From: a virus
Virus record (IMG/VR): IMGVR_UViG_3300047490_000306
Span: 1 to 22,580 of that record
DNA length: 22,580 bases
Reading direction: 5' to 3' (one strand)
Shown: positions 1,430-21,439 of the stretch, piece after piece
Position numbering within the stretch: position 1 is the first letter of the stretch
How the letters are laid out: each line of letters begins with the position of its first letter
Notes under the pieces: generated by a model
Databases searched by the model: none
What the model was told of the DNA's origin: nothing
What the model saw: the letters and a program-made list of their open reading frames with translations, nothing else
Translations under genes and position numbers: made by a program

Positions 1430-3715
1430 CTACTTGCTCTTTTTGTAATCGACGGGGCAAGCTCCGTTGGAACAGTCTATATGTTCTTTACCAATATCTT
1501 CTTCAATACTGACGATATTAGTTATAAGGTCGTTCAGTTGTTGCAAACTGATGGGTTCTTCCGGCTGATACTCATATGACGTAGTATCTTCCTGAGGCAT
1601 AACCGAACAGCAAGCAATTGTACTCTGGAATTTAGGGTACAACGAACTGAACTCTTTATATGATATACGAGCCGGATCATATTTCAAGGTGTATGATATC
1701 TGATTTCCTGCCGGTTCCGAATCATTAGGAACCTTGTTTCCGTGAATCCAATATTTTTCTCCGAGTTGTAGCCACTTATATTGCTCTTCTGGAGTTGCCA
1801 CCGCGGCAGTTATCAGTTTATCTTCAAGACCTAATTTAGTTATTTCTGGTTTTGTAGGAAATCCAACAATCGTAGTTCCTTCATATGTTCTTAACACCCG
1901 ATGTGGATAGCCGGCCTTGACATATTTACCAACAAGCGGATCATCATTTCGAAACTGAACCCAACGCAAATATGCGGCCATAGAAGGCAAATGCCAGCCT
2001 TCAGTGAGTCCGTGAATTTTCGAAATCGTGCCGCTAGGTTTGATTGTCAGCGCCGTATGGGGTACTTCGACCCCAAGTTTTTTGCTGTATTTTACTGCTT
2101 CGTCACGCACGGCGTTTGACAATCGAGATATGGCTGCCCAAAAATCTTTAGAGACATTTTCGTTCAGCAAATCGCGAAAAGATAGCCCAAAGAATTTCCA
2201 AGCAAACTCGTGTACTCCGGTCAAACCAATACCAATGCGGTTTGTGCGTTTGACTTCGCGGTGAAACAGCGAATCCATTAAATTTACCCGAATCATTGCC
2301 CGGGTTGCAACCCGAACTGCTTCTTCTGCTTCATCTAATGTGTCGGCGTGATATGGCACTACATCGCATATGACACAAAATGCACCAAGAATGAATAAGC
2401 AAATTTCGGAGCAAGGATTAACTCCCATAGGAAATGGATGCTTCAAAACTTTCTTAGCAATTTTTGCAAGCATCAATTTTGTTTCATCGTTAACGGTGTA
2501 CTTTTTGGAAGAAACGTAATCGCCATCAACATATTTTTCTATGCCTTTATTGCGAGCCGCCAACTTATGCTGATTGATAATACCTGGTTCTCCGGTACCA
2601 TCAGCATACGCACACTCCATCAATTTGGCCAAAACTTTGCGAGCATGTACGGCAAGTTCTTTTTGTTCTTTGTCCAATTTTTTGATTGCACTAGAAGAAA
2701 GTTTGGTTAGTCTCCAAAATTCTTCGTCGACCATAACCGAGTTATTAGACGACCACAAAAACGAATTAAGTGCGGGTAAGCCTTTTTGCTTTCGTTCATT
2801 TCTTATTGCCAAAACTTCATCAACAGTTTTTCCGTGGAACTCTACCGGGCGTTTGACCTCGATGAATTCCAAAATTGATTTGTTGCGCCAAGATTTCCAA
2901 GACATACGAGCAGCACGCCTTGCTCCTCCGACAAGTACACACTCGGAAAAATAGTGGTCGATATACATCGCCTGTAGCCAAGGAGCAAGATTCGACCCCT
3001 TCAAACTTGCGGCTTTCATAAATGCGTTCATTAACGGAACCGGACCACTGGCAGGGCGATCTTGCATACCACCGATCGGTGCACCTTTAGCTCGAACGTC
3101 GGAAAAAACAAGAATCAACATCTTGTCTTTGTGAATTTTTTCGAACGCCGCAGTTTCCCACGTTTCGAAAGCCTTAGCCCATCCTTCCCGAGAATCCGGC
3201 ACACGAAACCACAGGGTGTCTTTACCTTGCCCGTACTTATGTAAAGCGTCTCTTTCCGATTCATGTGCAGAGTAATCAAAATCGGGATGGCTATCGCTCA
3301 ACACACAACGCAGAGAAGGAGCATGATCCCAATTTACAACCATCAATTCATCGTCAAAACACCGCCCAACACCCGAACCGTTTAGTAGCAAGAAAAACGA
3401 AACAAACGAAGAAGCTGCATGAGAACAGTTCGTAAAAAGTTCCATGTTTCTTTTTGGCTGATTTTTATCGCCATGCTGCAAATGTCTTCCCGACATCATT
3501 ACTGTTGCTTTGGCGATATGTCTTTTGAGTATTTCTCTCTCTGATTCCATTTCATTCGGAAACGGACTTAGCAAAGAATTTCCCAAAGAAACTCTATCCG
3601 CCACATCTAGCCAAGATTCCCATATACCATTATACTTGCGCAAAATGGTTCTTTGTGCCACAGCGGCACCCATGCCGGCTATCGGCTCTCGGACTATCAA
3701 ATTACTTTCGCTCAT
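1430..3715 (-). CDS. nrdJ: Adenosylcobalamin-dependent ribonucleotide reductase, class II
   Basis: 761 aa. Reduces ribonucleotides to deoxyribonucleotides using a B12-generated thiyl radical; supplies dNTPs for phage replication in the cytoplasm, with or without oxygen. Residue numbers count from the chosen start. Diagnostic sites: NCS near C97 (redox cysteine), NPCSE at 433-437 with C435 as the likely thiyl cysteine, a second cysteine cluster FCVIC at 446-450, the PSGT loop at 560-563, and a C-terminal DCSNGACP tail (C748, C753) like the regenerating pair of the monomeric Lactobacillus-type enzyme. The chosen start at 3715 has GGAG 9 nt upstream (3725-3728); an in-frame ATG at 3748 lacks a ribosome site and sits inside a TAAATA box, which fits a promoter with a short leader. 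The gene follows thyX, so two dNTP genes are adjacent. T4 itself uses a class I enzyme, so this is a replacement. Confidence 0.93.
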   Translation of the reverse strand: MSESNLIVREPIAGMGAAVAQRTILRKYNGIWESWLDVADRVSLGNSLLSPFPNEMESEREILKRHIAKATVMMSGRHLQHGDKNQPKRNMELFTNCSHAASSFVSFFLLLNGSGVGRCFDDELMVVNWDHAPSLRCVLSDSHPDFDYSAHESERDALHKYGQGKDTLWFRVPDSREGWAKAFETWETAAFEKIHKDKMLILVFSDVRAKGAPIGGMQDRPASGPVPLMNAFMKAASLKGSNLAPWLQAMYIDHYFSECVLVGGARRAARMSWKSWRNKSILEFIEVKRPVEFHGKTVDEVLAIRNERKQKGLPALNSFLWSSNNSVMVDEEFWRLTKLSSSAIKKLDKEQKELAVHARKVLAKLMECAYADGTGEPGIINQHKLAARNKGIEKYVDGDYVSSKKYTVNDETKLMLAKIAKKVLKHPFPMGVNPCSEICLFILGAFCVICDVVPYHADTLDEAEEAVRVATRAMIRVNLMDSLFHREVKRTNRIGIGLTGVHEFAWKFFGLSFRDLLNENVSKDFWAAISRLSNAVRDEAVKYSKKLGVEVPHTALTIKPSGTISKIHGLTEGWHLPSMAAYLRWVQFRNDDPLVGKYVKAGYPHRVLRTYEGTTIVGFPTKPEITKLGLEDKLITAAVATPEEQYKWLQLGEKYWIHGNKVPNDSEPAGNQISYTLKYDPARISYKEFSSLYPKFQSTIACCSVMPQEDTTSYEYQPEEPISLQQLNDLITNIVSIEEDIGKEHIDCSNGACPVDYKKSK

Positions 3716-3747
3716 CTCGTTAATCTCCAGATTCAATTTAGGTTGCA

Positions 3748-3753
3748 TATTTA
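3748..3753 (-). promoter_or_regulatory. TAAATA box upstream of nrdJ
   Basis: The minus strand reads AACTAAATATG; the TAA is also the thyX stop codon. The box lies 32 nt upstream of the nrdJ start supported by a GGAG site, a spacing that suits a late-type promoter. Because the stop codon supplies half of the motif, chance is a real alternative. Confidence 0.3.
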
Positions 3754-4611: not shown

Positions 4612-5645
4612 ACTTTTTTCCAATTGTTAAACCGAATTTTAGCGGTCAGCCCTTTATATGTACACGATTCAATCAATTTTTGCGGATTCATCCCGGCCAA
4701 AACCATGTCGTTAATATCTTTTTGTTTTAGATCATTCGGCCAGATAACGATTGAATAACCTTCGTCGATTCTACGATTCATTCTAGATACTATTTCTTCG
4801 TTTCTGGGTTCGTTGTCATAAGCAAAAATCGTATTTGAAACATCAAATGGCAAAGACTTTAGATCAACATCACTTCCGGATAACGCCCAAGCATTGCGCA
4901 AAAACAGACTATCAATTGGGCCTTCTACCGCATAGTTTCTTACGGAAAAATTTACGGCATCCATACCATAGATTTTTGGAGTAGTAATACCTTCTTTTTT
5001 GATCGTTAGATAGCGAATACCCAGACAAGGGCGAATAAACAATCTTCCCTGAATCGCAAATAAATTCTTGTCGCAATCAAAATAAGGTAATACCAACCTA
5101 GGTTCTGATTTGAGTTGCCCTTCTTCTATCGTGCTGTCGAGCGATCTGGCCAAAGCGGCAAAATCATCCGTATAGTATAGTTTTTTCCAAGCAGATTGCG
5201 GTATTTTTCTGCCATCGACATACCCAACCGCAGGATGATTTAATGGCAGACTGTCAACCCTTTTGCATAACGTAACCAGACAATCGGGTACTACCCTGAT
5301 CGTTTTAGGTGGCAAAATTGCAACTTTTGGAAGAGTTTCTTGCACTCGACCAGTCGCATTGGCCATGAAATTTTCTTTGATGTACTCTCGAAACAAAAGA
5401 GAGTCCATAGATTTCAACAGTGTAGAGAACCTAGAACTATATCCGCAGTTGTGACATTTGGCGATATACGATCCTTTATACTCAAACAGATAGAACCTCT
5501 TTTTGTTTAGGTTCTTTTTCGAGTCGCCACATTTAGGGCACCTACACACCGCCAAATTCTTGGTTTTCCACTGAAACTTCGACAATTTCGGCGAAAGCAA
5601 ATTGATGTACTTGTAATCGATATAATAATGAGTGGTCGCCATCAT
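4608..5645 (-). CDS. 61: DNA primase, T4 gp61 type
   Basis: 345 aa, close to T4 gp61 (342 aa). Makes the RNA primers for lagging-strand synthesis together with the gp41 helicase, which is not in this window. An N-terminal zinc ribbon is formed by C36/C39 and C64/C67 (CPKCGDS and KCHNCGYS). The TOPRIM-like catalytic core shows VEGPIDSLFL (E241) and FAYDNEPRN (D277), both near-identical in pattern to T4 gp61. It overlaps the polymerase stop by ATGA at the start and thyX by ATGA at the end, so the polymerase, primase and thyX genes are probably translationally coupled. A second methionine follows immediately, so the true start may be one codon later. Confidence 0.93.
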   Translation of the reverse strand: MMATTHYYIDYKYINLLSPKLSKFQWKTKNLAVCRCPKCGDSKKNLNKKRFYLFEYKGSYIAKCHNCGYSSRFSTLLKSMDSLLFREYIKENFMANATGRVQETLPKVAILPPKTIRVVPDCLVTLCKRVDSLPLNHPAVGYVDGRKIPQSAWKKLYYTDDFAALARSLDSTIEEGQLKSEPRLVLPYFDCDKNLFAIQGRLFIRPCLGIRYLTIKKEGITTPKIYGMDAVNFSVRNYAVEGPIDSLFLRNAWALSGSDVDLKSLPFDVSNTIFAYDNEPRNEEIVSRMNRRIDEGYSIVIWPNDLKQKDINDMVLAGMNPQKLIESCTYKGLTAKIRFNNWKKV

Positions 5646-8161
5646 GCAAAGAATGACTCCAAAGAAGATCGAGGTTCAATAGACCATTTTTTGACTTCCA
5701 ACAAAGAAATCAGAGGATCAGAAAACGTTTTGCTGTATTGTAAATCTCGATCCGCGTATTCTTCCAAACAAAACTCTTTAGGAATCTGCGAAGGAGGAAA
5801 AGAAATAACGGTGTTGTGTAATGGGTTCGGAATCTTCAAGTACAGAAACTTGATCTTGTCTCCGTCAGATATCTTAGTGTACTTATTCGCCAGACCAAGT
5901 CGATCGATCGTGCTATTATAAATCAACGCACCCTTGACGGCGATAGGCGTTCCTTTGGCATATATGCTGTTTGGGTCAGCATATTCCTTCATCCCATTAA
6001 TTCCGCGAGGAAAAGATATATCAATCAGAGGAGCCGCGGCGAAGTCGCGCCGGAATTTCTCTAGAAACTTATGCAATGCCGCTTCATCTTCGTTGAGAAT
6101 GATTCGAATTGCTTCCTTAAGGCCATCACGACATATTTTGGGAGTAGAAGAACGTTGAGTTTCCAACCCGGTAATTTTGATTTTTGGAGTTTTGTAGCGA
6201 ACGCCTTCTGAGTCCCACACCTGCAAACAGTATCTCTTTTTAGCAGTCCACAATGCACGATCAGCAATTACTTCTCTCTTCATTTCGAGAGTTTGCTCTT
6301 TTGCGTTCAAATACTGGTATAATTCGGCAAACCGCGAAGTAATGTATGGCTGTAGATACTTGTTGCAAAACTTATCCATAACATCAACTATCTTTTCTTT
6401 TGGCGTCGATCCCGGCAAAGTTTTGACGAGAGGTTCCAGATTCAAATAACAAGAGTCTGTATCGGAACCGATAACATAATCCACGCCATTTGTTTTGAAT
6501 GTCACATTAAGATACGCATTAAGATACTTCTGAATCCATTGAATAGCTAACTGACCAGTCATAGTAATTGCTTCGGCTTGATTGAGATCGAAATACCGAA
6601 AGTATTGGTTACCCAAAGCACCGTATGCACTGTTAAGACTGATTTTGGCAGCCATCTGCTGAACGTCGAATTGTACTGCTTCTTTACGATACTTCGCTTC
6701 ATCCGAAGTTGACAGATTAGGTTCTTCTAATTTTTTCTTGGCATCCAACATCTTTTTCTTGAAGACTTTTCGACGATTGAAAAATTTCTCCATGAGTTCA
6801 GGAAGAAATCCCTTAACCTCCCTACGAAAACACTGCCCATTAGCGCCAACCGACAAATCGAGAGCGACCGCGGCGGACAGATCACATTTTTTCTCCAAGA
6901 GATCATTTACAGTAACCTCAATTTTGCGATCTACAATTGTATCCGGAGAAATATTGAGAAAACGAATAAGATTGGGATACAGAGAGGCCAAGTCAAAACT
7001 TACGATCCATTTATACTCACCAGGTTTTGGGTCCTTGACATACGCGCCGGCATATTGTTCATCTTTTCCGGAAGACCTCTTCAAAGGAATAGCAATTTTT
7101 TTCGCATTAAGATGGTTGTAGATCAACATATCCCAGGTGCGAACTTGGCTAAACACATCAACGTAGTTAATTCCGGCAGTGTATGCCATCGAAACGTGCA
7201 AAGACAAAAAGTTGAGTTTATCTTCTAGTTGCTCGACCAATTCTGCATCATGCAAATTGTACAGGGCAAACAACTGATGGTCTTTTGTGTAGAATTCTCG
7301 AAAATAATCGTATTTGTCGGTCCATGGAATTTTTCTTTTGTTCAACTCGGCATTAGCAATGTGATCGAGAGTGTATGATTCCTGTGGGCTTAGACTGTAT
7401 TTTCGATACAATTCCTGATAGTCTAAGGTATCAATTCCCTCAATGGCATAAACCTCTGCGATCTTGCCTCGCACTTCAACCTGATCGTACGTAATCTTAT
7501 TCCATGGAGAAAGACTTTTCGCCTTATCTTCACCAAACAAAACACCAATACGGCGAATCAGATATGGAATGTCGAAGAAACGAATATACCATCCAGTGAT
7601 AATATCAAGATCGATCGTTTTCCAAACACCAATGAAATCGAGCAATAATTCTTTTTCAGTTTGGTGCAATCGATACTCAACTCCAGCAGGCAAGACGGCC
7701 GGCTGCAAACCAAAAACATATCTCTTGTCTTTACACAACAGAGTAATGAGATTTACTCTCTCGTTTGCTGTTTCGATGTTTGGGAAACCTTCTTCCGATT
7801 CAGTTTCGATATCGATCGTTCCGACGCGGATTGTGTTGAAGTCGTAAGTCGTTTCCTGCCCGGGAGGGGTTAAACTAGCAATGTATTGATAAATCCACTG
7901 TGTATTTCCATATATCTCGAAATTATCCACACCCTCATATGTCTTCAGAAATTCTTGGCATTCCGACATAGTTCCCGGAGACATAGGATAGACCAATTTG
8001 CCTTGAATGGTTTTCCACGGGTCTGCTTTGGTTTTGCTCGCACCCGTAACATACAGCGTAGGCAAAAAGCTTGTTCTATATTGAACTCGCTTGCCATCTG
8101 CATCATATCCACGAAACAAAATATCGTTGTGTCTACGGGAAACGTTTGTGTAAAAACTCAT
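5642..8161 (-). CDS. 43: Family B DNA polymerase, T4 gp43 type
   Basis: 839 aa (T4: 898). Replicative polymerase with a proofreading exonuclease. Exo I DIE at 117-119 (TIDIET), Exo II around FFDIPY at 195-200, Exo III YNLHD at 301-305. Polymerase motif A DLASLYP (390-396), motif B KISLNSAYG (506-514), motif C SDTDS (566-570), then a KKRYCLQ block. All catalytic acids are present, so it should be active for both synthesis and proofreading. The C-terminus SSLESFFA resembles the clamp-binding tail that contacts gp45. The start overlaps the previous gene by ATGA. In T4, regA and 43 are adjacent; here dut and a DUF5664 gene are inserted between them. Confidence 0.97.
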   Translation of the reverse strand: MSFYTNVSRRHNDILFRGYDADGKRVQYRTSFLPTLYVTGASKTKADPWKTIQGKLVYPMSPGTMSECQEFLKTYEGVDNFEIYGNTQWIYQYIASLTPPGQETTYDFNTIRVGTIDIETESEEGFPNIETANERVNLITLLCKDKRYVFGLQPAVLPAGVEYRLHQTEKELLLDFIGVWKTIDLDIITGWYIRFFDIPYLIRRIGVLFGEDKAKSLSPWNKITYDQVEVRGKIAEVYAIEGIDTLDYQELYRKYSLSPQESYTLDHIANAELNKRKIPWTDKYDYFREFYTKDHQLFALYNLHDAELVEQLEDKLNFLSLHVSMAYTAGINYVDVFSQVRTWDMLIYNHLNAKKIAIPLKRSSGKDEQYAGAYVKDPKPGEYKWIVSFDLASLYPNLIRFLNISPDTIVDRKIEVTVNDLLEKKCDLSAAVALDLSVGANGQCFRREVKGFLPELMEKFFNRRKVFKKKMLDAKKKLEEPNLSTSDEAKYRKEAVQFDVQQMAAKISLNSAYGALGNQYFRYFDLNQAEAITMTGQLAIQWIQKYLNAYLNVTFKTNGVDYVIGSDTDSCYLNLEPLVKTLPGSTPKEKIVDVMDKFCNKYLQPYITSRFAELYQYLNAKEQTLEMKREVIADRALWTAKKRYCLQVWDSEGVRYKTPKIKITGLETQRSSTPKICRDGLKEAIRIILNEDEAALHKFLEKFRRDFAAAPLIDISFPRGINGMKEYADPNSIYAKGTPIAVKGALIYNSTIDRLGLANKYTKISDGDKIKFLYLKIPNPLHNTVISFPPSQIPKEFCLEEYADRDLQYSKTFSDPLISLLEVKKWSIEPRSSLESFFA

Positions 8162-8586
8162 GATTTTTTGAACTTATCCTCTGCTGTGCCCTTCAAAAAT
8201 TCATCGGGATGATAAAACGTTCCAGGCTTCGGTAAATCATTGACCTGATCGCTCAGAAGCCCACGTTCTATTCTTTCTTCATGATCCATGAGACAAAATG
8301 CGTTCCATGCGATAGCTGCGAGATGGTCTTCCGATCGATCTCCACCCAAATAACAAAAAGTATGTCTAAGGATCGCCTCGACATACCTCGACATACTTAA
8401 TCCACGTTCCCAATTTCGAGGCGGATACTTGCTTTTGACACCGTTTTCGTAATGTTTAGCAAGTCTATGTATACCATGAACAGAAATCAAATCGTATCGC
8501 CCTTTACCAGAACTATCCGAACGCAAAGCTCCACTGGTAAATTGTGCCATGGAATCTCCATGGTTAACAGAATCATAGCAAGGCAT
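8158..8586 (-). CDS. dATP/dGTP diphosphohydrolase-like protein (DUF5664 type)
   Basis: 142 aa. The middle of the protein, GRYDLISVHGIHRLAKHYENG followed by RNWERG, SRYVEAILRH and EDHLAAIAWN (86-95), follows the DUF5664 / dGTP_diPhyd_N pattern found in many phages, with the helical EDHxAAxAWN segment likely holding metal ligands. Members are annotated as purine dNTP diphosphohydrolases that reshape the nucleotide pool. The start at 8586 has AGGAG upstream; the GTG-initiated longer form would overlap dut. It ends in an ATGA overlap with the polymerase gene and follows dut by 4 bp, so it belongs to the replication operon. No PurZ-like gene is visible, so there is no support for a modified-adenine genome. 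The enzymatic activity is inferred from the family label. Confidence 0.75.
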   Translation of the reverse strand: MPCYDSVNHGDSMAQFTSGALRSDSSGKGRYDLISVHGIHRLAKHYENGVKSKYPPRNWERGLSMSRYVEAILRHTFCYLGGDRSEDHLAAIAWNAFCLMDHEERIERGLLSDQVNDLPKPGTFYHPDEFLKGTAEDKFKKS

Positions 8587-8590
8587 AAGA

Positions 8591-9118
8591 TTAAACTCCT
8601 GTACTTCCGAAACCACCCTTGCGATCAGTTTTGTCGTCGAGTACTCGATAATCGACTTGCTGTAGACTATAGTTCAATACGGGCACCATTTCAAATTGGG
8701 CAATTCGATCGCCGTGCGAAATTTTCGCATCGACGGAAGAGGTATTGTGAACCAGAACATAGCACTGTTTGGTGTAGTCGGAATCGATAACGCCTTCGGC
8801 ATTAGCAAGAGTAAGACCGTTCTTCAAAGCCAATCCAGAACGAATATGCAAACGAACAGAATATCCTTCCGGAATATCAAAAATATAACCAGTAGGAATC
8901 AACGCTCTATACCCAGGTTTGAGTACGATGGCATATCGATCCGAATCGAATGTCTTAAACGCACACAAATTATGAGAAACGTTGCTGTCGCTGTACGCCG
9001 ACACGATCTGCGTCGAAGGTCCAAAATGTGCCCGAAGATCATAACAGGCAGACTGGGATGTTGCCTTGGTCGGTGCTTGCACCGTGGAATCAATACACAT
9101 ATATTTCAAAATACTCAT
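8591..9118 (-). CDS. dut: Trimeric dUTPase
   Basis: 175 aa. Hydrolyses dUTP to dUMP and PPi, keeping uracil out of phage DNA and feeding ThyX. All five family motifs are present: SACYDLRA (23-30), HIRSGLALKNGL (91-102), NAEGVIDSDYTKQ (106-118), HGDRIAQFEMVPV (135-147) and the glycine-rich RKGGFGSTG (166-174). It is longer than the usual ~150 residues because of a segment at about 33-60 between motifs 1 and 2. An AAAGGG ribosome site precedes the ATG at 9118. T4 uses a different, all-alpha dUTPase (gp56), so this is another non-orthologous replacement. Confidence 0.97.
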   Translation of the reverse strand: MSILKYMCIDSTVQAPTKATSQSACYDLRAHFGPSTQIVSAYSDSNVSHNLCAFKTFDSDRYAIVLKPGYRALIPTGYIFDIPEGYSVRLHIRSGLALKNGLTLANAEGVIDSDYTKQCYVLVHNTSSVDAKISHGDRIAQFEMVPVLNYSLQQVDYRVLDDKTDRKGGFGSTGV

Positions 9119-9134
9119 AATATAACCCTTTCGT

Positions 9135-9548
9135 TTAACCCAATCGTTTAGGTTTTTTTCCGATAACGTACTTAGGTTCTAAAATCCAATCTGGTTTTTC
9201 TGTAAAAGTTAAGACTTTAATGTTGCTCAGGTTAGATTTAGTTTTTGCAATTTTTTCGGTTTGTATGATTTTAATCAAATTCCATTCTTGCAATAACTTT
9301 GCAATTGTGTTTCTTCTTTCTTCATCCTCCCCATCAAACGTAATATCGTTTCCGTCCAACCCGTAAAGTTCTTTGAAATGTACAATTGCATAGCGACCCT
9401 GTTTATGCAAAATGTGGCAACTTTGATAAAGAATTTTGTCTTTTTTGCTAGCGATGCCAATGCGGGAAAGTGTTTCTCGGATTTTAAGGAAATTTTGAGA
9501 AGAAATAATATCTACTTCTACCCCATAACCTCGGAAAACGTCATTCAT
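9135..9548 (-). CDS. regA: RegA-like translational repressor
   Basis: 137 aa (T4: 122). RegA binds the initiation region of early phage mRNAs and represses their translation, including replication genes. The stretches FLKIRETLSRIGIASKKDK, LYQSCHIL, YAIVHFKELYGLDG, AKLLQEWNLIKI and PKYVIGKK match T4 RegA almost position by position. The N-terminus is extended by about eight residues relative to T4, but the start at 9548 has TAGGA upstream. The gene keeps the T4 position immediately downstream of 62, with a TAAATA box 28 nt ahead of its start. It could regulate the clamp and clamp-loader genes just upstream, as in T4. Confidence 0.92.
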   Translation of the reverse strand: MNDVFRGYGVEVDIISSQNFLKIRETLSRIGIASKKDKILYQSCHILHKQGRYAIVHFKELYGLDGNDITFDGEDEERRNTIAKLLQEWNLIKIIQTEKIAKTKSNLSNIKVLTFTEKPDWILEPKYVIGKKPKRLG

Positions 9549-10736: not shown

Positions 10737-10742
10737 TATTTA
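10737..10742 (-). promoter_or_regulatory. AATAAATA box at the gene 44 / 254-aa gene junction
   Basis: The minus strand reads CAAATAAATACT; the box includes the gene 44 stop codon and ends 2-11 nt before three candidate ATGs of the next gene, which lacks a ribosome site. A late-type promoter giving a leaderless mRNA is possible; overlap with a TAA stop is the simpler explanation. Confidence 0.28.
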
Positions 10743-11684
10743 TTTGAATGTCGCGTTAAGAAGAATTTCTGCCATGCAAGCGGCGAGGCAAATTTCCGGA
10801 TCCGCACAGAAAGCCATCCGGTACTGATGTTCGCCTAGAATCATGATGACAGCAGGAATGGAAGCCGGCTCGACGTTCTGCGAAAGCCCGTCGTATATCT
10901 TACGAAAAATCGTCGCAGGTTCCATATCAGTATTCAATGAAATCCATTTACGTATTTCCGTGTAGTTTTTGGCTTTCATGGAATCGATCAAAGGTTTGAT
11001 ATCGAAGTCCGTATATCTGGATAAAATCCCAGAGTCAATTTGCCCAGAATTTGAATAGCGTTGCAACTCCCCCAAGACCCGCCGGTAATCCGGGAAGTAC
11101 TTAACAACGACTTCCAAAAGAACCTTTTGATCGAAGGTGATATTCTCGGCTGTCAAAATCTCCTTCGCTCGCTCAAACATTTTCTTAGCCAGAATCGGCT
11201 TTTCTTTCGAAGGAATTCGAAAATCAATAACGGAGCATCGGGAATGAAGTGGTTCAATAATGCGATTCTTGTAGTTACATGTTAAGACGAATCGACAGTT
11301 GTTCGCGAATTCCTCAATAAATCCGCGCAAAGCAGGCTGGGTACTGGATGGGTTAAGATAATCCGCCTCATCCAAGATCACAGTTTTCTTGCTATTTGTC
11401 AGCGAAACGCTGCTGGCAAAATCTCGTACCGTCGTTCTCAAAGTATCGATGTTACCAGATTCACTGCCGTTAATGAACAGAAAATCCGAATCAATCTCCT
11501 TGCATAAAGCTTTGGCAACTGTTGTTTTTCCACAACCAGCAGTGCCCGAGAAAATCATGTTGGGAATTTCACCAGACCTAACTATAGACTGAAATGTAGA
11601 TTCCAGGCCGACAGGCAAAATACACTCAGATATTTTTTGTGGGCGATATTTCTCGACCCACAAAAACTGTTCTGGGTTTGTCAT
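10740..11684 (-). CDS. 44: Clamp loader large subunit, gp44 AAA+ ATPase
   Basis: 314 aa (T4: 319). ATPase that opens and loads the sliding clamp. Starts WVEKYRPQKISECILP, the universal clamp loader N-terminus; Walker A GTAGCGKTT (47-55), Walker B VILDEADYL (102-110), and the SRC arginine-finger motif (148-150). A C-terminal collar domain follows. All catalytic residues are present. The start has AAGGA upstream. It lies 23 nt after the clamp gene 45, as in T4. Confidence 0.96.
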   Translation of the reverse strand: MTNPEQFLWVEKYRPQKISECILPVGLESTFQSIVRSGEIPNMIFSGTAGCGKTTVAKALCKEIDSDFLFINGSESGNIDTLRTTVRDFASSVSLTNSKKTVILDEADYLNPSSTQPALRGFIEEFANNCRFVLTCNYKNRIIEPLHSRCSVIDFRIPSKEKPILAKKMFERAKEILTAENITFDQKVLLEVVVKYFPDYRRVLGELQRYSNSGQIDSGILSRYTDFDIKPLIDSMKAKNYTEIRKWISLNTDMEPATIFRKIYDGLSQNVEPASIPAVIMILGEHQYRMAFCADPEICLAACMAEILLNATFK

Positions 11685-11707: not shown

Positions 11708-12382
11708 TCAGGCAATCTTACTATCGACTTCGACGCTCACAAAGTAGGAAACGACTGCTCCCTGCCAATTACTGATACCCTTTTTGCTGAGATGTACAGT
11801 GTAATCGCCGGGAATGAACTTAAGGTTTTCGATTTTGAAGAACACTTCAAACTCTGAATTTGAAACCTCTGGACCCGAATTGGATAATTGAATGGAATAC
11901 TCATTTGACGTTGGGCTCTTTTTGTTGAGACAAGTCAAAATCAATTCTCCGGTATCGTTGGAACGCAAGCAAAGGTCGGAAACACCAAGAACGGCGGCCG
12001 CCTTCGAAATTTCTTCTAATTGTTCCTGGGTAATCTTGAAGGAAATATCCTTCGATGGCATTGCGATATCCCGCGTAGGAACATGCAACAATGATGGTTG
12101 AGTGTAGTAATACTTCACCTTCGACTTGCCGGGTGCTGCAATGGAGACAAACTTTTCTTCGAACTGCAAATCCGGATCTTTGAACAGAGAAATGATGTTC
12201 AAGAACTTTCGAAGGTCCCAAATTCCAAAAGAAACAGGAAACGATTCTGCGATACTGGCTTCTGCAAATATTCCATTATTTGCACTGATCGTCCGCAGCG
12301 GCTTGTCGGCGGTGAACATGACGTTAGAGTTAATTTCTGCAAAATTCTTCAATATAGTCAAAGTCTGTGTGCTAATCTTCAT
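11708..12382 (-). CDS. 45: Sliding clamp, gp45-like
   Basis: 224 aa (T4: 228). Trimeric processivity factor for the polymerase and, in T4, a mobile activator of late transcription. The start MKISTQTLTILKNFAEINSNVMF parallels T4 gp45 (LLKNFATINSGIM), and the IWDLRKFLNIISLF segment and the FKIENLKFIPGDYTVHLSKKG segment near the end match the clamp fold at equivalent places. A strong AAAGGA site precedes the ATG. A terminator lies just upstream (12407-12434), so the clamp gene probably starts a new transcript or depends on read-through. If the TAAATA boxes in this window are late promoters, this protein would be part of their control. Confidence 0.92.
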   Translation of the reverse strand: MKISTQTLTILKNFAEINSNVMFTADKPLRTISANNGIFAEASIAESFPVSFGIWDLRKFLNIISLFKDPDLQFEEKFVSIAAPGKSKVKYYYTQPSLLHVPTRDIAMPSKDISFKITQEQLEEISKAAAVLGVSDLCLRSNDTGELILTCLNKKSPTSNEYSIQLSNSGPEVSNSEFEVFFKIENLKFIPGDYTVHLSKKGISNWQGAVVSYFVSVEVDSKIA

Positions 12383-18426: not shown

Positions 18427-18942
18427 TCATACCATTTTTGAAGCCATTTGCGCAAAAACCTCAGGCAAAGAAATCGGCTTGTAATTTGTACAATCGACCC
18501 CTACGTCGAGACACAACTTTTTAGGATCGTGAGTCAATTTCCCTAGTGTGTGGCTGTGCAAATGCCAAGCACCATCATTCATTCTCGGCCAGATCAACAG
18601 CGGATAATGACACAATACAACATGTTTTCGCATTCCAACAACGTTTAGTTGCAAATGAAATATTTGATGAACTTCCCGAAACAGGCTTTTTTCGTAACCC
18701 AGATTTTTGTCCATCGGTCCCTGAATCAAAAAAATGTTGTCACATTCTATTTGATTTCTCCACGACCTTGCTTTACCAAAAGCAAAATTTCCTAGATGAA
18801 ACAGTCTGTCTTCGGGTTTAACGACTCGGTTAATGTTAGCGATGAGCCGAGTGTTCATTTCCTCGACGTCCAGATATGGGCGGTTTCGGTACTCTATAAT
18901 GCTTTTGCGGTTAAATTGTGTGTCGGCAATGAACCAATCCAT
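18427..18942 (-). CDS. Metallophosphoesterase-fold protein with degraded active site
   Basis: 171 aa. The whole framework follows the small phage and bacterial calcineurin-like phosphoesterases (DTHFGHxNII, NRPF, EEM, LGDF, GNHD, HYPL, HGHTHG, DVGVD). Here those sites read DTQFNRKSII (7-16), LGNF (50-53), GPMD (75-78), CHYPL (111-115) and HSHTLG (129-134). D7, H112 and H131 survive, but H9, D52, N76, H77 and the second histidine of the last motif are replaced. The fold is probably intact and catalysis lost, so a binding or inhibitory role is more likely than hydrolysis. The ATG at 18942 lies one base after the stop of a 19-codon leader with a strong ribosome site, so translation is probably coupled. 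An in-frame upstream TTG (18978) is less likely. Confidence 0.8.
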   Translation of the reverse strand: MDWFIADTQFNRKSIIEYRNRPYLDVEEMNTRLIANINRVVKPEDRLFHLGNFAFGKARSWRNQIECDNIFLIQGPMDKNLGYEKSLFREVHQIFHLQLNVVGMRKHVVLCHYPLLIWPRMNDGAWHLHSHTLGKLTHDPKKLCLDVGVDCTNYKPISLPEVFAQMASKMV

Positions 18943-18943
18943 G

Positions 18944-19003
18944 TTATTTTGCAGCCTGCATTGTGCTTCGACCGTCAAACAGAATATATTCGAGTAAAGC
19001 CAT
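18944..19003 (-). CDS. 19-codon leader peptide, coupled to the phosphoesterase-fold gene
   Basis: MALLEYILFDGRSTMQAAK. AAGGAGA is 7 nt before the ATG at 19003, one of the best ribosome sites in the window, whereas the phosphoesterase-fold gene itself has none close. The peptide stop is followed after a single base by the next ATG (TAACATG). This layout suggests termination-reinitiation. No homology can be judged at this length. Confidence 0.5.
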   Translation of the reverse strand: MALLEYILFDGRSTMQAAK

Positions 19004-19477: not shown

Positions 19478-20272
19478 TCATCGACTCTCGGCCTTGCCGT
19501 TGCTAGCCCTTTCGATACATTGTTCGCCAAAATTGATTAATTGTAGTTCTCCACTTTCATTTTCAACGATTGCATTGCAATTGCTTAAATCTGTCCAGCA
19601 TCCGCAATTTATGTAGTGGCGATTATTGACGAATTTCATTTCTGCGTGGTGAATATGACCACAAATTATTCCGTAGCAATTTTGATCCGACGCATATTTT
19701 GCAACAGCATCGGAAAAATGACTTATGTAAATGGTTGCTTTTTTAACTTTACATTTCACATATTTACTCAATGACCAATATTCTAAACCACAAAGATTTC
19801 TAATTCTGTTGTATATGCCGTTAAGCCATATCAAAAATTCATATCCGTGATCGCCGAGTTTTGAAATCCAAGGAGAATATCTCGTTATGAGATCAAATTG
19901 ATGCCCGTGAATTACGACGTACTTTTTTCCAGAAGAAGTCGTATGAATTACCTGTTCGCAAAAATGAATGTTTCCGAACGTATTATGCTCATCGATGAAA
20001 TGGGACAAGAATTCGTCGTGGTTGCCGTACACATAATTTATTATACATCCTTTTTTGGCGATTTTCAACAATCTTTGTATGATGTTTATGTGTTTTTGAC
20101 CGGCCTCTGCTCCAAGAAATCCGGATTGCTTCATTCTCCAGATATCAATAACATCTCCTACAAGATATAGTTTTTCGAATTCATTTTCTTTGAGAAACCG
20201 GTAGACGAGATCGACTTGGCTTTTATTGCATCCGAGATGTAAATCTGATATAAAACATGCCTTGTATTTCAT
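19478..20272 (-). CDS. plcP: PlcP-like metallophosphoesterase (COG2908), probable phospholipase C of lipid remodelling
   Basis: 264 aa. All five calcineurin-like metallophosphoesterase motifs are intact: SDLHLG (9-14), GDVIDIW (39-45), YGNHDE (82-87), IHGHQFD (121-127) and CGHIHHAEM near 206-214. The GLEYWSLSKYVKCKVKKA and GQKHINIIQRLLKIAKKG segments match COG2908 proteins annotated as UDP-2,3-diacylglucosamine pyrophosphatase-like, the family that includes Sinorhizobium PlcP. PlcP cleaves phospholipid headgroups to diacylglycerol under phosphate starvation, freeing phosphate. The usual GDW near the end is GCW, a change of unknown effect. The gene overlaps the glycosyltransferase as ATGA, the Agt-PlcP pairing seen in marine and soil bacteria. 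LpxH activity in lipid A synthesis is the main alternative and is less likely given this partner. Confidence 0.75.
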   Translation of the reverse strand: MKYKACFISDLHLGCNKSQVDLVYRFLKENEFEKLYLVGDVIDIWRMKQSGFLGAEAGQKHINIIQRLLKIAKKGCIINYVYGNHDEFLSHFIDEHNTFGNIHFCEQVIHTTSSGKKYVVIHGHQFDLITRYSPWISKLGDHGYEFLIWLNGIYNRIRNLCGLEYWSLSKYVKCKVKKATIYISHFSDAVAKYASDQNCYGIICGHIHHAEMKFVNNRHYINCGCWTDLSNCNAIVENESGELQLINFGEQCIERASNGKAESR

Positions 20273-21288
20273 TTTACACCTATCAGGTAATCAGTGAATG
20301 TCGTCGTGCAATTTTCCCACGAAAAGATTTTTGCAAGTTCGATTGCATCTTTGCTGTTTCCGAACTTTATGGCATTATCGAGACACTGCTGCAAATCTTC
20401 TCCAATAAAACATGATCTTTTGGCTAATTCTGGACTAGTCTTTGCTATGTCGATTGGTCCTGGTTCCGGATAAGCGGCAAATGGAACTCCGCAAGCCAGA
20501 GATTCGAGAAGAACCAAACCGTACGTATCGCTCCTGCTGGGAAATACAAAAACATCACTCTCAGAATACAACCTAGCAAGTTCTTCTCCGGTTTTTACCC
20601 CGAAAAAGTGTATGTCTGAATTTTCTTTTTGTAGTCTTGAACAAATGGGCCCATCGCCGATAACTATTTTTGTTCCTTCTGTTTTCAAATCGACAAAGGC
20701 CATCATGTTTTTTTCGGCCGAAACCCTCCCGACATATGCTACTATAGGCCTTTTTAGATTTGAAGATTTCGAATAAGGCTTGAATACCGACAGATCGACA
20801 CCTCTGGGCCAAACGACGACGTTCTTAAATCTCTTTTTGCCCAGTATTTCCTTCATTGAGCGGGTTGGCACAAGAACTCGGCTTGCTTTAGAATGAAACC
20901 ATCTCAAATATGCGTATGTTATGCCCAACGGAATACAATGCATCTTTTTGAGATATTCTGGAAATCTTGTATGATATGAAGTAGTAAAGGAAATTTTGTG
21001 CTTCAAACAATAATTGCGAACCATCAGCCCAATTGTTCCCTCGGTGGCCACATGTACATAATCAGGCGCACATTCTTTCGAAAATAAAGATTCGATAACT
21101 TTTTTATCTGGTATCGATATGGAAATTTCTTTGTAGAACGGCCAGCGAAAGTTTCTGAAATTGTTTGGAGTCAAAAATACAACTTCAAAACCCAGTTTTT
21201 TCAATTCTTCGGCCGTGGTGTTTAGAGTGCGCACTACCCCATTGACTTGTGGATACCATGCATCTGTGGCGATTAGTATTTTCTTCAT
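20269..21288 (-). CDS. agt: GT4 glycosyltransferase, probable Agt glycolipid synthase
   Basis: 339 aa, GT-B fold retaining enzyme. N-terminal domain: ILIATDAWYPQVNGVVRTL (4-22) with the glycine-rich acceptor loop and SYHTRFPEY (104-112). C-terminal donor domain: VGRVSAEKN (186-194) and the E-x-x-E region FPSRSDTYGLVLLESLACG (249-267), ending in YPEPGP. This is the close relative of sulfoquinovosyl-, mannosyl- and glucosyl-diacylglycerol transferases. Agt adds a sugar to diacylglycerol made by PlcP, giving glycolipids that replace phospholipids; here the plcP-like gene overlaps it by 4 bp. No signal peptide; such enzymes sit on the inner face of the membrane. The ATG at 21288 has no ribosome site; a TAAATA box lies 7 nt upstream and an upstream TTG (21312) is unlikely. 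LPS or capsule glycosylation is an alternative role. Confidence 0.78.
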   Translation of the reverse strand: MKKILIATDAWYPQVNGVVRTLNTTAEELKKLGFEVVFLTPNNFRNFRWPFYKEISISIPDKKVIESLFSKECAPDYVHVATEGTIGLMVRNYCLKHKISFTTSYHTRFPEYLKKMHCIPLGITYAYLRWFHSKASRVLVPTRSMKEILGKKRFKNVVVWPRGVDLSVFKPYSKSSNLKRPIVAYVGRVSAEKNMMAFVDLKTEGTKIVIGDGPICSRLQKENSDIHFFGVKTGEELARLYSESDVFVFPSRSDTYGLVLLESLACGVPFAAYPEPGPIDIAKTSPELAKRSCFIGEDLQQCLDNAIKFGNSKDAIELAKIFSWENCTTTFTDYLIGVK

Positions 21289-21301: not shown

Positions 21302-21439
21302 TGAGCAGCCAACCAGGGTCTCAGAAGCGTCGGAAGCCCCTAGGATCGATTCTGGCGGGCCCGCCGGGCCCGGCTCGTCAATGTCACGAAACGGGCTGAA
21401 ATTCACCAGAATCGATCCTTTTGTTCGGGATCTGTTCAT
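21299..21439 (-). CDS. Possible 46-aa Gly/Pro-rich protein
   Basis: MNRSRTKGSILVNFSPFRDI then DEPGPAGPPESILGASDASE, ending LVGCS. The middle is encoded by the GC-rich inverted repeat at 21342-21419. Only a weak GAAGAAAA precedes the ATG. It fills the space between the 35-aa frame and the glycosyltransferase, but the composition may simply follow from the DNA structure, so coding is uncertain. Confidence 0.35.
   Translation of the reverse strand: MNRSRTKGSILVNFSPFRDIDEPGPAGPPESILGASDASETLVGCS
21342..21419. repeat. GC-rich inverted repeat with 14-bp perfect arms
   Basis: AGGATCGATTCTGG (21342-21355) and CCAGAATCGATCCT (21406-21419) are exact reverse complements separated by 50 nt. The interval holds a second hairpin, CGGGCC-CGCCG-GGCCCG (21356-21372), adjoining the left arm. 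On the plus strand TTTTGTT follows the right arm; on the coding strand there is no T-run, so it is not an obvious terminator for these genes. Confidence 0.9.

Follow-up and report, generated by a model that had tools for sequence, protein, structure and literature searches.

The window analysed here is an IMG/VR virus record of 22,580 bp, in which the minus strand holds most of the genes. Two overlapping minus-strand genes make up the locus. The first (20269..21288) was recognised by its Pfam GT4 domains, conserved residues and nearest relatives as an agt-like GT4 glycosyltransferase gene, and the second (19478..20272) as a plcP-like gene for a COG2908 metallophosphoesterase by its score against an LpxH model, its motifs and its place in a tree. 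According to the ORF coordinates, the agt stop and the plcP start overlap by 4 bp (20269..20272, minus strand), which suggests coupled translation. The transferase ORF encodes 339 aa from an ATG, with an in-frame upstream TTG at 21312 as a possible alternative start; the phosphoesterase ORF encodes 264 aa. No obvious signal peptide was recognised in either protein by reading the sequence, and both are therefore expected to work on the cytoplasmic side of the membrane. The order agt-plcP is the reverse of that in all other viral pairs examined (plcP-agt).

The window is a contig of a T4-like phage, as judged by its replication module. It carries a gp43-type DNA polymerase (5642..8161, minus strand; phrog_262, 2.4e-300), the RegA translation repressor (9135..9548, minus strand; phrog_242, 1.4e-52), the gp44 clamp loader (10740..11684, minus strand; phrog_168, 4.1e-114) and the gp45 sliding clamp (11708..12382, minus strand; phrog_223, 2.3e-66), together with the gp62 clamp loader and a T4-type primase. 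The closest polymerases to gp43 in the phage collection were from cyanophages (approximately 47% identity), and a search of viral contigs with the gp45 clamp returned no close relative. Nucleotide metabolism is represented by ThyX, dUTPase and a B12-dependent ribonucleotide reductase. The reductase gene (1430-3748, minus strand) adjoins thyX, and the N-terminal domain of a dATP/dGTP diphosphohydrolase was detected at 8158-8616 (minus strand; PF18909, 3e-19). A second phosphoesterase-like ORF of unassigned function (18427-18978, minus strand; phrog_547, 2.3e-32) lies shortly downstream of plcP. The agt and plcP genes are located upstream of the T4 replication module, and their GC content (39-40%) shows no shift from the rest of the window (37-44%). 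The observation made in the sequence-only reading, overlapping GT4 and COG2908 genes in a T4-like phage, is confirmed.

The phosphoesterase was matched by the Pfam models Metallophos_2 (2.7e-10) and Metallophos (1.9e-7). Against the curated LpxH model TIGR01854 it scored 27 bits, far below the cut-off of 190. In ten proteobacterial genomes scored with the same model, true LpxHs reached 221-323 bits where present and the reported PlcP-type paralogues 33-45 bits; bacteria in this set encode true LpxH separately, besides PlcP. All metal ligands are kept in the window protein (D10, H12, D40, N84, H122, H206 and H208). The residue after GN is R in all six aligned LpxHs and H in all 78 bacterial PlcPs and in the window protein (H85), so that the GNRD motif of LpxH is replaced by GNHD. 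Likewise, the last position of GDxxD is D in 78 of 78 bacterial PlcPs and in the window protein (D43), and E or N in LpxH; the PlcP-type motifs GNHDE and GDxxD are both present. LpxH occupied its own side of a branch with support of 100, apart from the window protein, which is 41.5% identical to the PlcP of Pseudomonas aeruginosa (locus L264) and 18-20% identical to LpxH. In P. aeruginosa gene numbering the L264 pair is PA3219-PA3218, and its Agt1 has been proven experimentally. An AlphaFold model of the phosphoesterase had a pLDDT of 82.5 and was poor in the lid helices. Its nearest solved structures in Foldseek were LpxHs, and no PlcP was found among the solved relatives. The earlier preference for PlcP over LpxH, which had rested on motif pattern and gene pairing, was upheld by profile scores, motifs and tree, and at the family level assignment to PlcP is supported.

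The transferase was matched by Glyco_transf_4 (3.7e-22) and Glycos_transf_1 (8e-15), and its best NCBIfam neighbours, below cut-off, were membrane-lipid glycosyltransferases. Its closest proteobacterial counterparts are Agts with 45-50% identity, the genes of which adjoin plcP as the window agt does with its 4-bp overlap; identity to the P. aeruginosa partner in L264 is 38.7%. In the tree it was placed among Agts and at a large distance from the outgroup of MgtA type. The SAR11 enzyme GTcp forms glucosyl-, galactosyl- and glucuronosyl-diacylglycerol, and mutants have shown that H104, D256, the donor residues, R163 and W320 are needed, with more than 90% of activity lost when D256 was changed to Glu (PMC8231724). 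H106 and D254 of the window transferase align to the H104-D256 dyad. Among the donor and diacylglycerol-site residues of GTcp that mutation has shown to be needed, G16, G82, G85, R163, R190, K195, T257, G259, E264 and W320 are identical in the window protein (R163 and W320 corresponding to R162 and W324); the exception is F258, in place of which the window protein and P. aeruginosa Agt1 both have Y. Motifs and their order served to transfer the GTcp numbering to the window protein. The catalytic Asp, in place of the usual Glu, was found in 81 of 81 bacterial rows and in P. aeruginosa Agt1, with Glu in the MgtA outgroup. A separate feature of the viral Agts is Glu at this position in 22 of 70. 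The AlphaFold model of the transferase had a pLDDT of 92.8; its closest solved fold was MshA, and PimA was also matched. Activity as a diacylglycerol glucosyltransferase has been shown for P. aeruginosa Agt1 (PMC8528852), and expression of a Pelagibacter Agt in Escherichia coli led to MGDG and GADG (PMC4796936). Profile scores, conservation of GTcp residues and the tree all bear out the initial Agt assignment, and the protein is supported as Agt-like at the family level.

For recurrence of the pair, viral contigs were scanned. A search with the window transferase alone found no close relative, and alignment queries were needed. A scan by transferase alone then yielded 80 viral loci, 72 of which had plcP adjacent or within approximately 1.1 kb; the pair is thus widespread in phages. 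Over both scans, plcP followed by agt on one strand was counted at 96 viral loci (some contigs being counted twice). Among bacterial loci with both genes, 69 of 71 had plcP before agt. Two bacterial loci that had at first appeared reversed proved to be an artefact of over-long ORFs, as domain coordinates revealed. Among the pair-bearing contigs are ones of 96-338 kb with T4 portal and polymerase genes; examples with the portal and/or gp43 polymerase measure 244, 144, 338, 335, 315, 150 and 146 kb. Genes near the viral pairs include those for NrdA, NrdB, ThyX, PhoH and primase. Two members of the phage collection, L004 (MT836169.1) and L005 (CAKLQH020000017.1), read as bacterial chromosome fragments and were set aside.

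Family membership, pairing, recurrence in phages and, in some relatives, linkage to pstS or desaturase genes lead us to interpret the pair as a phage-captured cassette for membrane-lipid remodelling, with a probability of roughly 0.7. Phage DNA synthesis makes heavy demands on phosphorus, of which host membranes contain a large reserve. On the inner side of the cytoplasmic membrane, PlcP would serve as a metal-dependent phospholipase C that splits phospholipids of the host to give diacylglycerol and a phosphorylated headgroup. Agt would then transfer glucose (or glucuronate or galactose) from a UDP-sugar to the diacylglycerol, and the resulting phosphorus-free glycolipid would replace the lost phospholipid and keep the membrane intact. 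Because the product of PlcP is a phosphorylated headgroup, release of free phosphate would require host phosphatases, which could turn it into phosphate for phage DNA. The altered membrane may itself serve the phage, so that the benefit could lie in phosphate, in the membrane change or in the two together. The inferred part of this reading comprises activity, substrates, timing and benefit.

The same two families with minimal spacing form the bacterial plcP-agt operon (PlcP-GTcp of SAR11 strain HTCC7211, PA3219-PA3218 of P. aeruginosa and Agt of Agrobacterium tumefaciens). The window pair shares with it the catalytic and diacylglycerol-site residues of GTcp, the PlcP metal ligands and the GNHDE and GDxxD motifs. 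It differs in being phage-encoded, in its reversed order, in having no recognised Pho box and in two esterase residues (H124 and C225, see below).

Neighbouring genes offer hints to the purpose of the cassette. Of 50 mostly long records, 8 had pstS, and in 5 of these 8 it was no more than 6 kb from plcP (1.3 expected, p 0.002). A desaturase gene could be clearly matched in 10 contigs, and in 8 of them its distance from the pair was at most 5 kb (1.5 expected). The 6-kb and 5-kb cut-offs were set post hoc and host-derived phage genes tend to cluster anyway, so that this proximity is support for a purpose and not proof of it. The same chemistry might instead be used mainly for envelope change, such as a block of superinfection or adjustment of charge and curvature for assembly or lysis, with phosphate salvage incidental. 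The desaturase linkage suggests such a role in membrane properties, a connection between the lipid composition of bacteria and attachment of phages has been reported (PMC9938194), and glycolipids have been linked to protection from polymyxin (PMC8528852). In addition, pstS was not found in the 22.6-kb window, and the single Pho-box match in a scan of it did not exceed chance expectation and was away from the pair. These negative results, together with the failure to find a desaturase gene in the window, also count against the main reading. However, pstS precedes plcP-agt by 110 and 304 bp in loci L151 (G061) and L147 (G037), respectively, an apparent phosphate and lipid cassette in these phages, and plcP adjoins a PstS-like gene in the cultured pelagiphage Mosig. 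The bacterial cassette, moreover, belongs to the phosphate-starvation response. We regard a mainly envelope-directed purpose as possible but rather unlikely.

A further complication is the divergence of the window PlcP. It has HGH (residues 122-124) where all bacterial PlcPs sampled have HGD, and GCWTD (224-228) where they have GDW[VI]E, so that D124 is replaced by H and D225 by C; a change of V to T (GDWV to GCWT) also marks the subclade. Invariance of these residues in bacteria is not known to equal a requirement for activity. Both active sites had been described as looking intact; this is correct for the transferase and, in the esterase, for the metal ligands, but not for the two aspartates. 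In 75 viral loci of this subclade (from a targeted scan and earlier loci), both markers, HGHQ and GCWT, were present in 72. No agt was found within approximately 5 kb in 72 of the 75, several of which are truncated; in the other three, which represent two distinct phages (L293/L321 and L296), agt adjoins plcP. The subclade appears to be a divergent, so far phage-only branch, and the window protein is best described as PlcP-like and divergent, not as a PlcP of the typical kind. Because two conserved aspartates were replaced and most members are without agt, its exact chemistry is less certain.

These features raise the question of whether the subclade has shifted to another substrate, such as a phospho-headgroup, a cyclic nucleotide or a host signalling phosphodiester, with Agt added later and loosely linked. 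Loss of the aspartates across the subclade, the majority of members without agt, the different nearest phage relatives of the window agt and plcP and their reversed order would all fit this. On the other hand, all metal ligands and the GNHDE and GDxxD motifs were kept, and agt adjoins subclade PlcPs in three phage groups (the window, L296 and L293/L321). Since agts from at least two branches adjoin subclade PlcPs, a continuing functional link can be argued, and a substrate shift seems doubtful to us.

In the tree, the sister of the window agt is the gene of L296 (60% identity, support 99), in which plcP (4995-5756) and agt (5753-6781) overlap by 4 bp in the usual order. The L296 plcP carries HGHQ and GCWT and belongs to the same subclade as the window plcP; within it, it groups with L055 and L030 (support 98), away from the window gene. 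The L293 agt falls in another viral branch than those of the window and L296, in trees with weak support for the deep branches. A first careful tree had suggested that the window agt was captured independently, but this idea was abandoned: an AU test performed before L296 was included did not reject a single viral agt clade (p 0.37), and L296 was then found as its sister. In the simplest reading, subclade plcPs would have joined agt more than once, or swapped partners, with tight spacing kept. A broader proposal, to which we assign about even odds, is that large T4-like phages of many lineages carry a complete two-step pathway from phospholipid to glycolipid. It would have been assembled more than once (different agt branches with one plcP subclade, and with the order reversed in the window) and would include a phage-only PlcP variant with rebuilt conserved motifs.

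An LpxH paired with an LPS or capsule transferase, which would modify lipid A or surface polysaccharide, is very improbable and was rejected by model score, motifs and trees: the deposited annotation of relatives and the Foldseek neighbours point to LpxH, but the latter included no solved PlcP for comparison, the score, motifs, identity and branch given above all separate the esterase from LpxH, bacteria with PlcP encode true LpxH separately, and the transferase stands with Agts. Bacterial contamination or chimeric assembly, for which L004 and L005 provide a precedent in the collection, can hardly account for a pair with uniform GC in a same-strand run into T4 replication genes and with counterparts beside T4 genes on many other phage contigs, and a chimera is further unlikely because a 60%-identical agt adjoins a same-subclade plcP in the separate contig L296; this explanation was likewise rejected.

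The LpxH label has a bearing on earlier work. LpxH (UDP-2,3-diacylglucosamine hydrolase, lipid A synthesis) shares the metallophosphoesterase fold and metal ligands with the window protein, which differs in the features listed above (approximately 19% identity, GNHD for GNRD, a score far below cut-off and a separate branch). In surveys of viruses, lpxH appears in the lists of metabolic genes (PMC10653327, PMC9611531). Judging from the present results, some of these calls may be mislabelled plcP genes, in which case the function to be inferred would be turnover of phospholipids and not synthesis of lipid A. The open-access literature searched contained no account of phage-borne plcP or agt, in agreement with the sequence-only reading. 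The pair would represent a pathway known from bacteria, carried by an apparently unreported host for it, a phage, and including an enzyme variant specific to phages.

Phage pstS, phoH and viral fatty-acid desaturase genes (PMC7300359) are comparable in being host-derived and expected to adjust host resources in infection, and some pair-bearing relatives carry phosphate or desaturase genes beside the cassette. These genes leave membrane-lipid phosphorus in place, whereas the window pair would be a two-step lipid replacement. If active, the cassette would let a phage draw on membrane phosphorus and redesign the membrane, and infection by viruses would be tied to the lipid remodelling with which cells respond in phosphate-poor waters.

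Homologous PlcPs also occur in phages without agt, among them Pelagibacter phage Mosig, Synechococcus phage S-SRM01 and many IMG/VR contigs. The Mosig and S-SRM01 copies have no Agt and are annotated as LpxH, and the Mosig genome announcement does not mention the plcP gene. Cultured Mosig and its host HTCC1062 offer a tractable system for part of the question. Phage plcPs without agt sometimes adjoin a PstS-like gene or a GT2 glycosyltransferase gene. The latter was found downstream of plcP in 10 of 40 such loci (e.g. L068:5743-6456). GT2 is possibly an alternative partner of phage plcP, and these loci recall other bacterial plcP neighbourhoods with glycosyltransferases (PMC4796936).
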